Notes under the pieces: model-generated
Told to the model about the DNA's origin: nothing
The model's input: the letters and a program-made list of their open reading frames with translations, nothing else
Databases searched by the model: none
Shown here: positions 55,468-60,146 of the stretch, in pieces
Layout: each line of letters starts with the position of its first letter
Numbering within the stretch: the first letter of the stretch is position 1
Position numbers and translations under genes: made by a program
Assembly (NCBI RefSeq): GCF_001684955.1
Contig: NZ_MAYF01000356.1
Coordinates: 1-64,000, forward strand
DNA length: 64,000 nucleotides
Origin: Chryseobacterium contaminans
Lineage (GTDB): Bacteria; Bacteroidota; Bacteroidia; Flavobacteriales; Weeksellaceae
Direction of reading: 5' to 3'

Positions 55468-56358
55468 TTAAGAAACAAAATCAGACATTCTTGGAAGTCC
55501 GGTTTGTGAACCTTTACCTCCTGAAACACGGGATGACACCTCATTTCCAAATTTCACACAGTCTTCAATAGAGTTCCCATGGCAAAGTGCGATTGCAAAT
55601 CCGGAAGTAAATGCATCTCCCATTCCCATCTTATAAACGGTCTTCTCTTTATTCTTTCTGTAATATTTCATTTCTGTACCGTCAAAATAAACGGTAGAAT
55701 TGGTATCATCCCGTACAAACACTTTATTAAAGTATTTTTTAAGAACCTCTTCTCTTTTTTCTTCTCCAAAAATGATAAACAATTCATTACTTTTGGCTAC
55801 AATAAAATCTACTTCTTCAAGGATGGCATCATCAACCCTCATGGCAGGAGAGGCATACAATCCTACTTTTTTACCATATTTTTTAGCCTTTTTTACAGTA
55901 TATTCTACCACCTCCATTGAAACCTCAAGCTGTACAAGAACAAGGTCTGAAGTATGGAAATAGCGGTCTGCTTCGTCAATATGTGAGGTATTCAGATATT
56001 TATTGGCCGCAGGAACTACCACAATAGCAGCATTCCCTTCAGAAGTGGTTACATAAGCTGTTCCTGTAGACTCTTTATCTGTTTCATGTACAAAGCCTAC
56101 ATTTACGCTTTCGCTCACCAGATTTCTCATAATTTGTTGTCCCAGGGGATCCATTCCAACACAACCTATGAAATAAACACTGGCGCCCAATCTTGCAGTT
56201 CCTACTGCCTGGTTAGCACCTTTCCCACCAAAATAGCTCTCTGAATTGACAGCCAGAACGGTTTCGTTAGGTGAAGGAAGTTTATCGGTTTCCAAAACAA
56301 GATCAATTGAGGAGCTGCCTACAACGATAATTTTTGGTTGTTCTGATGAGAAATTCAT
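55468..56358 (-). CDS. rbsK: PfkB-family sugar kinase, ribokinase-like
   Basis: This 296-residue kinase matches ribokinase: VVGSSSIDLVLETDKLPSPNETVLAV near 12-37, SYFGGKGANQAVGTARLGASVYFIGCVGMDPLGQ near 41-74 (PfkB signature 1), and GMGDAFTSGFAIAL near 248 with the catalytic base Asp (signature 2, usually GAGDTF). It would phosphorylate ribose or a similar sugar; no ribose transporter or rbsD gene is adjacent, so the substrate is uncertain. It has a complete promoter within the end of the upstream gene and its own terminator. Confidence 0.87.
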   Translation of the reverse strand: MNFSSEQPKIIVVGSSSIDLVLETDKLPSPNETVLAVNSESYFGGKGANQAVGTARLGASVYFIGCVGMDPLGQQIMRNLVSESVNVGFVHETDKESTGTAYVTTSEGNAAIVVVPAANKYLNTSHIDEADRYFHTSDLVLVQLEVSMEVVEYTVKKAKKYGKKVGLYASPAMRVDDAILEEVDFIVAKSNELFIIFGEEKREEVLKKYFNKVFVRDDTNSTVYFDGTEMKYYRKNKEKTVYKMGMGDAFTSGFAIALCHGNSIEDCVKFGNEVSSRVSGGKGSQTGLPRMSDFVS

Positions 56359-56404
56359 TGTGTTTGATATTAGTTTAAAAATTATAACAGACTAAATTCC
56401 GTGC

Positions 56405-56437
56405 CAAAAATAACTAATTTTACCTAACTTATTTCAA
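56405..56437 (-). promoter_or_regulatory. Complete flavobacterial promoter (TTG-N22-TATTTTTG) of the ribokinase-like gene
   Basis: TTG at 56437-56435 and TATTTTTG at 56412-56405 are separated by 22 bp, within consensus. The ATG is 46 bases downstream. The -33 part lies inside the 3' end of the DUF4241 gene, so the kinase has its own promoter. Confidence 0.65.
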
Positions 56438-57059
56438 TAAATTCTGTAATAATCTTCACCGGTGATTGATTTTTATCGTAAGCAATATAGCTGGCATAAA
56501 AACCTTCTCCGTATCCTGTCTCAAAAGCAAATATAGTCCCGGGATGAGTTTCTGAAGGTTTTAGAAATGCATATTGATCTATTGCCCCCTTTTCATCGAA
56601 GAAATATTCATGGAAAAACTCTTCATAGATTCCCATAAAGTCTCCACCTTTTTTATGATAAAGTTTCTGTTCCAATTCATTAAGACTGTTTTGAGTATCC
56701 ACATCCATGAAGCAGCCCATTCCACTTTCTACCGGATATCCAAAAACTTCTCCTTCCACCAGTTCCTTAATATTCTGCCCAGCCGTAGTTGCCAGCTTCC
56801 AGTCTTTAATTTCTGCAGTATTGAAAATAATTTCTGCATAAGCTACACAATTACTATCTCTTTCTTTATGTAACATTACAGAAAATTCTCCTTTTGGAAA
56901 ATCTGCAGAAAAAGGAAGCATATCATTGGTGATTAAGGGATCACAAGCAACCAGCTTTCCACTGGAAAGATAGATTTTCCCTACTTCAAAACTTTCTAAC
57001 AAGGGACTTTCTACAAAATCCTTCGAAAATAGCTTTTTTATGTTTTCTATATGTGTCAT
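56424..57059 (-). CDS. DUF4241 family protein
   Basis: This 211-residue protein resembles DUF4241 proteins, which have no known biochemical role but are often found near toxin-immunity genes. Features: VGKIYLSSGKLVACDPLI near 26-43, FPKGEFSVMLHKE near 54, VAYAEIIFNTAEIKDWKLA near 72, GYPVESGMGCFMDVDTQ near 107, and FAFETGYGEGFYASYIAYDKN near 173. No signal peptide. It lies nine bases downstream of the GIY-YIG gene on the same strand. Confidence 0.8.
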   Translation of the reverse strand: MTHIENIKKLFSKDFVESPLLESFEVGKIYLSSGKLVACDPLITNDMLPFSADFPKGEFSVMLHKERDSNCVAYAEIIFNTAEIKDWKLATTAGQNIKELVEGEVFGYPVESGMGCFMDVDTQNSLNELEQKLYHKKGGDFMGIYEEFFHEYFFDEKGAIDQYAFLKPSETHPGTIFAFETGYGEGFYASYIAYDKNQSPVKIITEFIEIS

Positions 57060-57068
57060 TTTATTGTA

Positions 57069-57431
57069 TTACTTATTCTCAGTGTCAGGCTGAGCGGAGT
57101 CGAAGCCTTTTTGATTTTTGCTGTCAACATTATCAGAGTGACTTTTGTTTTGACAAACAGACAACTCTTTTAATTGATCCCAATTATCATTAATTATAGC
57201 TTCTTTTTTCTTTCTACTCCAACCTTTCACTTGCTTTTCAAACACTATCGCTTGAATAATGTCATTAAATACATAAAAGAAGACTAGTTCAACCGGTCTT
57301 CTTTTATAAGTATAACTTTCAGGAAATTTACCTGATTGATGTTGAGCTAATCTTACTTCAATATCATTGGTAACTCCTGTATAATAGGAGTTGTCGGAAC
57401 ATCTTAAAATATATACGAAATATTGTTTCAT
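57069..57431 (-). CDS. Single-domain GIY-YIG endonuclease
   Basis: This 120-residue protein is a stand-alone GIY-YIG nuclease (UvrC N-terminal-like fold). It begins MKQYFVYILRCSDNSYYTGVT, where YVYIL...YYTGVT is the family's GIY-YIG motif. The catalytic Arg lies in DIEVRLAQHQSG near 27, and the catalytic Glu in AIVFEKQVKGWSRKKK near 65. The last 12 or so residues (KGFDSAQPDTENK) are encoded by one copy of a 30-bp repeat; the other copy lies inverted just upstream of the ATG. Such genes are frequent in Flavobacteriia and are probably mobile or homing-like, though no target is known. Confidence 0.88.
   Translation of the reverse strand: MKQYFVYILRCSDNSYYTGVTNDIEVRLAQHQSGKFPESYTYKRRPVELVFFYVFNDIIQAIVFEKQVKGWSRKKKEAIINDNWDQLKELSVCQNKSHSDNVDSKNQKGFDSAQPDTENK
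57083..57112 (+). repeat. Left 30-bp inverted repeat of the GIY-YIG gene
   Basis: This is a GC-rich sequence (TGTCAGGCTGAGCGG...GAAGCCTTTTT) inside the 3' end of the GIY-YIG gene. It is the exact reverse complement of 57442-57471. Each arm is itself partly palindromic (GGCT...AGCC), like REP elements. Confidence 0.9.
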
Positions 57432-57441
57432 TTTTATTCCA

Positions 57442-57471
57442 AAAAAGGCTTCGACTCCGCTCAGCCTGACA
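57442..57471 (-). repeat. Right 30-bp inverted repeat of the GIY-YIG gene
   Basis: This is an exact inverted copy of 57083-57112, ten bases upstream of the GIY-YIG ATG and 31 bases after the valS stop. The two arms bracket 329 bases that are almost entirely the nuclease gene. No target-site duplication was seen. Confidence 0.9.
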
Positions 57472-57502
57472 TTCCAACAACTTCTTTTATTATTGGGTTT
57501 AT

Positions 57503-60118
57503 TTACAAACTTTTCAGCTTCTCTTCCAAGATCGCAATCTTATCAAGAGCATCTTTCTGTTTCTTACGTTCTACCTCTACAATTTCAGGTTTAGCATTAG
57601 CCACAAACTTTTCGTTGGAAAGCTTTTTATCTACTGAAATCAAGAATCCTTTCAGATACTTTAATTCTTCTTCAGTTTTCGCTTTTTCTTCTCCTAAATC
57701 TAAGTTTTCACTTAAAGGAATAGAAACTTCTGTTGCACCAACAAGGAATGTAAAGCTTGGCTTATCTGTTTTCTGCCCGAAGTGAATTTCAGAAACATTG
57801 GCTAGTTTTCTTACTACCGCTTCATTCGCAAATTCAGTAGCATTGGTATATATTTCAGCGGCTTCTCTTGGGGAAATTCCTTTTGTCTGACGGTAATTTC
57901 TAACTCCAGAGATCAGTTCTGCCGCAGTTTCAAAGTTTTTAATGATCGTCTCATCAAATGCTCCCGCTTCTTTTTGCTGAGCAATTACTAAAGCATCTTC
58001 AATATTTCTTTCTGAAATCGTCTGCCATAATTCTTCTGTTAAGAAAGGCATGAACGGGTGAAGCAACTTCATCAGCTCTTCAAAGAAATATATTGTTTTG
58101 TTATAAACCTCTTTAGAAATACCTTCTCCATAGTTAGGCTTGATTGCTTCAAGATACCAACCACAAAAATCGTCCCAAATTAATTTATAGATCAAATGAA
58201 GGGCATCAGAAATTCTGAATTTCTCAAACTGATCGTTGATTTCAACAATGGTTTTATTTAATTTATTTTCAAACCAGTCAATAGTTTGAGTCTCTGTTGC
58301 ATTTGCTGCCTTATCTTCATGATTCCACATGTTAATTAAACGGAATGCATTCCAGATTTTCGTCATGAAATTTCTTCCCTGAAGCATTAAATCTTCATCA
58401 AAAAGAAGGTCATTTCCAGCTGCAGAACTCAATAGAATTCCTACACGAACGCCATCAGCTCCATATTTTTCCATCAGCTCAAGCGGATCCGGAGAGTTTC
58501 CTAAAGATTTTGACATCTTTCTTCTCTGCTTATCTCTTACAATTCCTGTAAAATAAACATTCTTAAACGGAACTTCTTTTCTGTATTCCAATCCCGCCAT
58601 AATCATTCTGGCTACCCAGAAGAAGATGATATCCGGAGCTGTAACCAGGTCAGAAGTTGGGTAATAATAATTGATATCTTTATTTTCTGGATCAAGTAAC
58701 CCATCAAATACAGACATTGGCCATAACCATGAAGAGAACCAGGTATCTAATGCATCATTATCCTGCCTAAGATCTTCTGTTGTTAATTCATGATTTCCTG
58801 TTTTTTGCTGAACCAGCTTTAAAGCTTCTTCTTTAGTTTCAGCTACTACAAAATCTTCATCCCCTGTACCATAATAGTAAGCAGGAATTTGTTGTCCCCA
58901 CCAAAGCTGACGGGAAATATTCCAGTCGCGGATGTTCTCCATCCAGTGTTTGTAAGTATTTTTAAACTTCTCTGGATAAAACTTTACCTCATCGCTCATT
59001 ACAACATCAAGTGCAGGCTGAGCAATTTCAGACATTTTAAGGAACCATTGTACCGAAACTTTAGGCTCAATAACAGCTCCTGTTCTTTCAGACGTTCCTA
59101 CTTTATTGACGTAATCCTCAGCTTTCAGTAAAAGACCTTTTTCTTCTAATTCTTTTGCGATCTGCTTTCTTACATCAAATCTGTTCTGTCCTGCATAGTG
59201 AAGACCATGTTCGTTAAGGTTTCCGTCATCATCTAATGCATCAATCATTTTCAACTGGTGCTTCTGCCCGATCTCGTAGTCATTCGTATCGTGTGCAGGA
59301 GTAATTTTTAAAGCTCCCGTTCCAAACTCAATGTCAACATATTCATCCTCAATAATAGGAATTACCCTGTCAACGATTGGTACGATTACATTTTTACCCT
59401 TTAAGTGTGCATATCTTTCATCATTAGGATTGATACATACAGCGGTATCCCCGAAAATAGTTTCAGGACGTGTAGTCGCAACTGAAAGGAACTCTTCTGA
59501 ACCTTCAATCTTATATTTAAGGAAATATAATTTTCCATTCTGTTCTTTAAAGATTACCTCTTCATCTGAAATATTGGTCTTCGCTTCCGGATCCCAGTTT
59601 ACCATTCTGTAGCCTCTGTAAATTAATCCTTTATTATAAAGATCTACAAAGCTTTTGATAACCTGCTGTGAAAGCTTGTCTTCCATTGTGAAACGGGTTC
59701 TGTCCCAATCGCATGAACATCCTAATTTTTTAAGCTGTTCAAGGATTGTCCCTCCGTATTTATTTGTCCATTCCCAAGCGTGTTCAAGGAATTGTTCACG
59801 GGTAATATCAGACTTATTGACTCCTTCAGACTTCAGTTTAGCAACAACTTTAGCTTCGGTAGCAATGGAAGCGTGATCTGTTCCCGGAATCCAACAAGCG
59901 TTAAACCCGCGCATTCTTGCACGGCGGACCAGAACATCCTGAATGGTATTGTTCAACATATGTCCCATGTGTAATATCCCCGTTACGTTTGGCGGCGGAA
60001 TGACCACGGTATATGGTGGTTTGTCATTAGGCTCTGAGTGGAAATATTTGTTTTCCAACCAGTAATTGTACCATTTCTGTTCTGTTTCCTGTGGATTGTA
60101 CTTTTCTGAAATCTGCAT
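57503..60118 (-). CDS. valS: Valine--tRNA ligase
   Basis: ValS is the class I aminoacyl-tRNA synthetase that charges tRNA-Val and edits threonine. The 871-residue protein has the HIGH-type motif HMGH at 50-53 within PPPNVTGILHMGHMLN, a CP1 editing domain (about 190-390, with VATTRPETIFGDTAV), the KMSKS motif in RRKMSKSLGNSPDPL near 530, a tRNA-binding helical domain, and a C-terminal coiled coil (about 805-871). I start it at the ATG at 60118; the longer frame begins at a TTG at 60142. A TATTTTTG -7 box at 60154-60147 would put the transcription start inside that extension. Confidence 0.97.
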   Translation of the reverse strand: MQISEKYNPQETEQKWYNYWLENKYFHSEPNDKPPYTVVIPPPNVTGILHMGHMLNNTIQDVLVRRARMRGFNACWIPGTDHASIATEAKVVAKLKSEGVNKSDITREQFLEHAWEWTNKYGGTILEQLKKLGCSCDWDRTRFTMEDKLSQQVIKSFVDLYNKGLIYRGYRMVNWDPEAKTNISDEEVIFKEQNGKLYFLKYKIEGSEEFLSVATTRPETIFGDTAVCINPNDERYAHLKGKNVIVPIVDRVIPIIEDEYVDIEFGTGALKITPAHDTNDYEIGQKHQLKMIDALDDDGNLNEHGLHYAGQNRFDVRKQIAKELEEKGLLLKAEDYVNKVGTSERTGAVIEPKVSVQWFLKMSEIAQPALDVVMSDEVKFYPEKFKNTYKHWMENIRDWNISRQLWWGQQIPAYYYGTGDEDFVVAETKEEALKLVQQKTGNHELTTEDLRQDNDALDTWFSSWLWPMSVFDGLLDPENKDINYYYPTSDLVTAPDIIFFWVARMIMAGLEYRKEVPFKNVYFTGIVRDKQRRKMSKSLGNSPDPLELMEKYGADGVRVGILLSSAAGNDLLFDEDLMLQGRNFMTKIWNAFRLINMWNHEDKAANATETQTIDWFENKLNKTIVEINDQFEKFRISDALHLIYKLIWDDFCGWYLEAIKPNYGEGISKEVYNKTIYFFEELMKLLHPFMPFLTEELWQTISERNIEDALVIAQQKEAGAFDETIIKNFETAAELISGVRNYRQTKGISPREAAEIYTNATEFANEAVVRKLANVSEIHFGQKTDKPSFTFLVGATEVSIPLSENLDLGEEKAKTEEELKYLKGFLISVDKKLSNEKFVANAKPEIVEVERKKQKDALDKIAILEEKLKSL

Positions 60119-60146
60119 AAATTCTATTTCTTTGGCTTGCAATTTG

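Follow-up and report, generated by a model that had tools for sequence, protein, structure and literature searches.

A probable REP-like repeat system with a single-domain GIY-YIG nuclease in Chryseobacterium contaminans

The closest described systems are the RAYT/REP systems, of which the REPINs are known relatives, and the GIY-YIG homing endonucleases (I-TevI and the Seg type), which have a GIY-YIG catalytic core and are patchily present at a fixed site. In RAYT/REP systems, the gene for a Y1 tyrosine transposase (PF01797) lies between two inverted repeats, each composed of a GT(A/G)G head and an imperfect palindrome, and this gene geometry, as set out in an excerpt of Nunvar et al. 2010 (PMC2817692), is matched by the nuclease and repeat reported here. 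The dRS3/NIME repeats of Neisseria form a third point of comparison; according to an excerpt of a review, they follow the pattern ATTCCC(N8)GGGAAT, a filamentous phage uses their commonest type as its integration target, and they are tied to a phage integrase, not to GIY-YIG (PMC3898611). Among the open-access matches listed in a literature search, titles and abstract starts contain no link between GIY-YIG and REP, RAYT, REPIN, dRS3 or repeats.

The window, the whole stretch of 64,000 nt analysed here, is from contig NZ_MAYF01000356.1 of Chryseobacterium contaminans. It contains a 120-aa ORF (57069..57431, minus strand) that the ORF list, a PF01541 match (E 6.9e-17 in a profile search), an AlphaFold model and residues conserved in relatives identify as a GIY-YIG nuclease, with the catalytic domain at 57204-57425. 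The gene is associated with two repeat arms of 30 nt each, one downstream (57083..57112, plus strand) and one upstream (57442..57471, minus strand), which are 100% complementary and spaced by 329 nt. Both arms start with a TGTCA head (57083-57087 and 57467-57471) that faces outward, giving the layout head-hairpin, nuclease gene, hairpin-head, with the nuclease as sole gene. The downstream arm doubles as coding sequence for residues 107-117 of the nuclease (QKGFDSAQPDT), while the upstream arm stops 10 nt short of the ATG; the perfect 30-bp inverted repeat, the arm-encoded C-terminal tail and the ten-base gap described in an earlier note on this DNA are thus all confirmed. The unit is flanked by a DUF4241 gene (PF14025; 56424..57059, minus strand) and by valS (57503..60142, minus strand; named from its own sequence), which serve as markers of the site on its two sides. 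Within the window, the 20-nt core of the repeat matches just the two arm sites, even with 3 mismatches, compared with a mean of 0.00 in shuffles (n = 100), and a chance origin of the arm pair is ruled out by the 100 window shuffles and 462 control intervals. An Rfam search of 56000-58600 matched nothing, and an NCBIfam search gave no useful match.

Residues Y7, Y17, G19, R27 and E65, which we take to be the catalytic residues of GIY-YIG nucleases, are kept in 132-133 of 133 relatives, so that a GIY-YIG domain with conserved active-site residues, as in homing endonucleases, is present. The median dN/dS is 0.09 across the 10 pairs whose DUF4241 dS is below 0.6 and 0.10 across the 108 whose GIY dS is below 1, showing, as judged from codon changes, that the nuclease is under purifying selection; leaving out L201, which had been read from a wrong start, does not alter the value of 0.09. 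The AlphaFold model has a pLDDT of 85. Its closest solved relatives are the UPF0213 structures 1zg2 and 1ywl (for 1zg2, sequence E 3.5e-14 and Foldseek E 1.2e-6), members of the same single-domain GIY-YIG family by both sequence and fold. The next fold neighbours are Slx1 branched-DNA nucleases (E 2e-3 or weaker), a likeness that, as an inference from the model, would suit a hairpin or cruciform substrate.

Relatives of the nuclease were taken from a genome contig scan as the best 80 of 337, chosen by similarity to the window protein, and are nearly all from Bacteroidota (Chryseobacterium, Epilithonimonas, Flavobacterium, Mucilaginibacter, Dyadobacter, Pedobacter and others). With each locus scored by the best inverted repeat between its two flanks, and with L064 dropped for its broken ORF (hence 79 and not 80 loci), a flanking inverted repeat of at least 16 is found at 49/79 GIY loci versus 0/462 same-size control intervals of the same loci, and one of at least 12 at 71/79 versus 9/462. 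A degenerate repeat pattern (TGTCANN[CG]TGAGN(3-5)TCGAA[GC], with at most one substitution) occurs within 300 bp of 79/80 GIY genes, on both sides in 65/80, often arrayed in alternating orientation, and at 19 times the density seen elsewhere in these loci (261 in 73.7 kb versus 77 in 418 kb). In a sample of the phylum, for which the 30 loci scoring best against Pfam were drawn from 118 genomes, 17/30 loci versus 0/55 controls have an inverted repeat of at least 12, a count that includes one locus (L349) read at the wrong place at a contig end. By our reading, 12 of these 17 repeats are headed, and five (L340, L346, L354, L356 and L359) are terminator-like or of low complexity. The other 13/30 loci score below 12, with a tRNA gene in 5 of the 12 such loci scanned; some GIY-YIG clades thus have no such repeats, and part of these lie next to tRNA genes. 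At the level of sequence, the general pairing of a GIY-YIG nuclease with its own repeat is firmly supported.

The genome of the window also holds a second GIY-YIG clade (98 aa) behind tRNA-Arg genes, at C224:649-1580 (L002, L003 and L005) and C322:85551 (L004), and in C224 a copy of the tRNA 3′ half closes each of three tandem 358-bp units. In other Bacteroidota, GIY-YIG genes lie near or beside tRNA-Leu, -Ser, -Met, -Val and -Lys (L340, L347, L352, L354, L356, L357, L358, L367, L372, L375 and L376), and some of these loci are tandem arrays with tRNA-derived repeats. A 3.0-Mb genome with 25 GIY-YIG matches (G199) contains a tandem GIY-YIG array with a period of ~360 bp (L377), and another Bacteroidota genome (G220) encodes two identical GIY-YIG proteins 6 kb apart (L369 and L370), within GTCATTCCCGCGNAAGCGGGAATCC-like repeat arrays.

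Other GIY-YIG clades of the genus are accompanied by other repeats, namely CTGAGCYTGTCGAAG, CTGAGGYTCTCGAAG, GGTGGCTGAG..CGAAGCCACC, TGTCATTCTGAACGAAG..GAAGAATCT, GTCATTGCGAGGA..CGAAGCAATC, GTCATTCCGTAGGAATC and GTCATCCYGTAGGGATCT (three loci without a match and one short ORF were omitted from this comparison). Across 133 labelled loci, each with an ORF of 80 aa or more, one of eight repeat types lies within 300 bp of 125, and 12 loci have more than one type; one genus clade (six loci at one site) has none of the eight. The heads are mostly GTCA, with the T4, Sinorhizobium and Novosphingobium repeats differing. When mapped on the protein tree, the repeat label changes 13 times, whereas 500 shuffles average 74.3 changes and never give fewer than 67. 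Because many loci represent the same genomic site in different species, the loci were grouped by flank similarity into 42 sites, 40 of them with a repeat; 20 draws of one locus per site gave 12-13 label changes, whereas shuffles average 23.8 and never give fewer than 18. The types were defined from the same flanks that were later labelled, and the test is therefore one of congruence, not of discovery. As read from these trees, the eight repeat types follow the nuclease phylogeny.

The repeat itself has the signature of a hairpin. The two bases preceding CTGAG pair with the two following CGAAG in 160 and 144 of 171 distinct repeats, compared with shuffle maxima of 75 and 84 for the two positions, and the summed pairing is 304/342 versus 118/342 or fewer when slid. 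In our reading, CTGAG and CGAAG are themselves able to pair around two G.A mismatches. This covariation shows the repeat to be a hairpin behind the TGTCA head. The single-strand folding energies of four repeats are unremarkable (z -1.32 to 0.44), and the hairpin assignment therefore rests on covariation. Some valS units have two further hairpins in place of the hairpin tip but keep the head and base, suggesting that the head and base are the parts that matter. This long variant is seen at valS junctions L161, L165, L184 and L246, on either or both arms of orthologous units.

In the genome of the window (365 contigs, 4.70 Mb), nine places match the 20-nt core with at most 3 mismatches, both arms included, and none matches the reversed pattern. 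The other copies stand singly or as inverted pairs, spaced by 60 and 74 bp, with the heads pointing inward in the pairs and outward around the nuclease gene. Across the genus, the 16-mer TGAGCGGAGTCGAAGC is found in 40/59 genomes and its reversed control never; its copy number is low, at most 21 per genome, and the repeat beyond the gene again takes the form of singles, doublets and alternating arrays. The dispersed copies that the earlier note had envisaged are thus present in both counts. With the unit's own copies subtracted by hand, T6 copies have a median of 2 in 21 genomes with T6 nuclease sequence (2/21 genes broken) versus 0 in 38 without (P 0.004), and T1 copies a median of 3 in 11 nuclease genomes (at least two with a broken gene) versus 1 in 48 without (P 0.006), these P values being rough because the genomes are related and not independent. 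Repeats also occur without the matching nuclease: two genomes without a T6 nuclease hold 23 and 11 T6 copies (G048 and G040), and the T1 16-mer is present in 29/48 genomes without the valS-type nuclease, in up to 21 copies, some matches possibly being T4 repeats, which can share that 16-mer. Nuclease-free genomes can be repeat-rich, which we count against the explanation preferred below.

PF01797 genes are present in 53/59 genus genomes. None of 32 RAYT loci of the genus carries the nuclease repeat, with one substitution allowed, and RAYT was rejected as owner of the repeat in the genus. An inverted repeat of at least 12, of other sequence, flanks 22 of the 30 RAYT loci with an ORF found (two of the 32 gave no ORF and were left out); RAYT loci with their own flanking repeats provide a positive control for the inverted-repeat method. 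The palindromes flanking Chryseobacterium RAYT loci (L017-L019 and others) include AGTCCCAACGGGACGATTTAACC and GGGCTAAAGCCCRTTYCTATTGA. The earlier note had proposed a REP-like dispersed repeat tied to the nuclease, and this is borne out by a pairing that is systematic, subtype-specific and distinct from the RAYT genes of the same genus. The likeness to RAYT/REP extends to the enzyme gene between two inverted head-plus-imperfect-palindrome repeats, to dispersed copies, inverted doublets and alternating clusters, and to repeat types congruent with enzyme phylogeny. The enzyme is PF01541 GIY-YIG here instead of a Y1 tyrosine transposase, and the head is TGTCA instead of GT(A/G)G, the palindrome part being matched by covariation. 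Because enzyme and head differ, the window unit is not a RAYT/REP member, yet to the extent that sequence can tell, it functions in the manner of one.

Similar units are found in Proteobacteria. A tblastn search of one nuclease against plasmid records gave 33 records, from which 15 loci were taken. An inverted repeat of at least 16 is present in 11/15 loci, all 11 among the 13 from Proteobacteria; a score of 16 is also reached by 4/30 shifted plasmid controls, including one at the Neisseria locus, as the regions around these loci are repeat-rich. The repeats are GTCATCCTCGGGCTTGACCCGAGGATCC and similar in Shinella and Neorhizobium, GTCATCCCAGGGCTTGACC in Rhizobium, CGTCACCCCGGGCTTGACCCGGGGTCCC in Sphingobium, GTCATCCCCGCGAAGGCGGGGATCC in Azospirillum and GTCATTCCCGCGCAGGCGGGAATC in Aeromonas and Neisseria. 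Hairpins with other heads occur at two Sinorhizobium loci and in Novosphingobium; L309 and L310 have weak inverted repeats, and L317 and L322 none. The inverted arms of the Neisseria GIY-YIG locus (L318) fit the dRS3 pattern, which is the point of likeness to dRS3/NIME. On an Azospirillum lipoferum plasmid (L321), the GIY-YIG unit lies between sufB and sufC of an Fe-S assembly gene cluster.

The history of the unit can be followed at the valS-DUF4241 site. DUF4241 is present in 148/148 genomes searched, and the unit occupies this site at 18 of 80 named loci and at 11 loci of the genus search, that of the window included. Among 110 valS junctions taken from these genomes, 29 contain GIY sequence, of which 17 were scored intact by script, and L267 and L268, which start with GTG, may be intact GIY genes too. 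A short CAGGCTGG..CCAGCCTG-like hairpin is present at 37/110, with one conserved sequence in 32 of them; the remaining junctions have other hairpins (13 and 6), another ORF (15) or other sequence (8), and two were left out (one without a valS end, one more skipped for the tree). A valS+DUF4241 tree shows these states in scattered positions; G032, for example, the sister of the window genome (support 0.997), differs from it in the presence of the unit at valS, and the flanking intergenic bases differ as well, which points to allele replacement, not precise insertion. A comparison of the junction in relatives, proposed in the earlier note, hence finds sister species that differ in the unit, but no precise empty site, as the intergenic segment differs between the window and G032. 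No target duplication is seen at valS. A solo doublet (C359), looked up in 13 relatives, likewise shows no precise empty site and no target duplication: five loci were aligned, three of them partly, and of the two full ones L327 (G025) has the doublet and L328 (G010) is without it, with no boundary readable because the intergenic sequence of L328 differs.

At L245, the sister of L246 (support 0.936), the left arm and the right arm are linked by a few bases, which are the reverse complement of the left arm; this is a fused-arm deletion scar. Among the 24 long units, both arms are short in 16, five are long/short, one is short/long, one is long/long, and one has an unclassified right arm; the mixed combinations therefore indicate that arms were replaced one by one. 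GIY synonymous divergence lies below that of both flanking genes in 124/153 pairs, which exclude L201 and are not independent, and between the window and G038 6/50 GIY synonymous sites differ versus 72.5/221 in the two flanking genes (P 0.003). The valS data fit repeated transfer of the allele between species, plus loss, and by the junction states the GIY gene is frequently lost there. A recent insertion or jump at valS was rejected, the unit being present at valS-DUF4241 in many species. For the same reason, the perfect arm identity is not supported as the sign of mobility that it had been taken for; it is instead largely old conservation plus some arm replacement.

Present and absent alleles are thus seen at one fixed site (valS), as for GIY-YIG homing endonucleases, with which the system shares the GIY-YIG core, the patchy fixed-site presence and an apparent exchange of flanks between species. 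It differs from them in that the nuclease is a bare catalytic domain with no intron seen, and in that multicopy hairpin repeats take the place of one unique site.

We consider it probable that the unit in the window belongs to a REP-like repeat system with a single-domain GIY-YIG nuclease that works by cutting and homing repair, and cut-and-repair is the most likely account of its mechanism. In repeats of its own type, the nuclease would recognise the base of the hairpin, in single-stranded or extruded form, and would nick or cut there. Repair from another copy would then replace or spread repeats, whereas repair from incoming DNA would re-introduce repeats and gene together; the gene would decay or be deleted unless renewed, as in the homing-endonuclease cycle. 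This reading builds on features visible in the sequences compared: systematic pairing, subtype specificity, the hairpin, purifying selection, the coming and going of the unit, arm replacement and one scar. Against it weigh the repeats in genomes without the matching nuclease, the failure to find a precise empty site or target duplication, the GIY-YIG clades that have no such repeats, the heads other than GTCA and the shifted plasmid controls that reach 16. A different and rather unlikely reading is that the GIY-YIG protein is a homing endonuclease for which the repeats are mere landing sites, the hairpins being spread by a transposase or phage integrase and each nuclease clade having adapted to one family. 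Patchy fixed-site presence, exchange of the whole intergenic segment, the lower GIY synonymous divergence (124/153 pairs) and the repeats in nuclease-free genomes would all agree with it, as would, from the review excerpt (PMC3898611), the commonest dRS3 type being a filamentous phage integration target in Neisseria. However, the close match between repeat type and nuclease clade would then require many separate adaptations, and RAYTs are excluded as the spreading agent in the genus sample.

The repeats might also be cis elements of the nuclease gene or the host (terminators, mRNA stabilisers or autoregulatory sites), with the nuclease in a host role such as hairpin trimming. The closeness of the arms to the gene on both sides, the palindrome, a possible terminator, kept at most GIY-less valS junctions and the Slx1 branched-DNA nucleases among the fold neighbours (E 2e-3 or weaker) speak for such a role; we regard it as improbable given the solo copies and doublets far from the gene, the alternating arrays at many GIY genes, the repeat type that switches with the nuclease clade and the frequent loss of the gene. 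Least credible, and in our view very improbable, is a conventional transposon, bounded by terminal inverted repeats and now without its transposase, with the GIY-YIG gene as cargo: the shape of the unit, a gene between inverted repeats, is that of a transposon, but the nuclease is the only gene of the window unit, the short unit recurs around relatives in several phyla, and no target duplication is seen at valS.

The cut-and-repair system proposed here may reach beyond the window. We hold it possible, with somewhat less than even confidence, that many common GTCA-headed bacterial repeats (TGTCAGGCTGAG..CGAAG, GTCATTGCGAGG..CGAAGCAATC, GTCATTCTGAA..GAAGAATC, GTCATTCCCGCG..GGGAATC including dRS3, and GTCATCCTCGGG..GAGGATCC) are bred by cognate single-domain GIY-YIG nucleases, and would form a second, independent REP-type world beside the RAYTs, with cut-and-repair instead of single-strand transposition, in Bacteroidota and Proteobacteria at the least. 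Bacterial genomes commonly contain short dispersed hairpin repeats, which are poorly explained; should every family of them have a cognate GIY-YIG nuclease, how they arose and spread could be tested with an enzyme of about 95 residues. In that case the partnership of repeat and enzyme would have arisen twice, from unrelated enzymes, and a function would be suggested for the many small proteins of the GIY-YIG nuclease family whose tails, such as GFDSAQPD, are encoded by a repeat.
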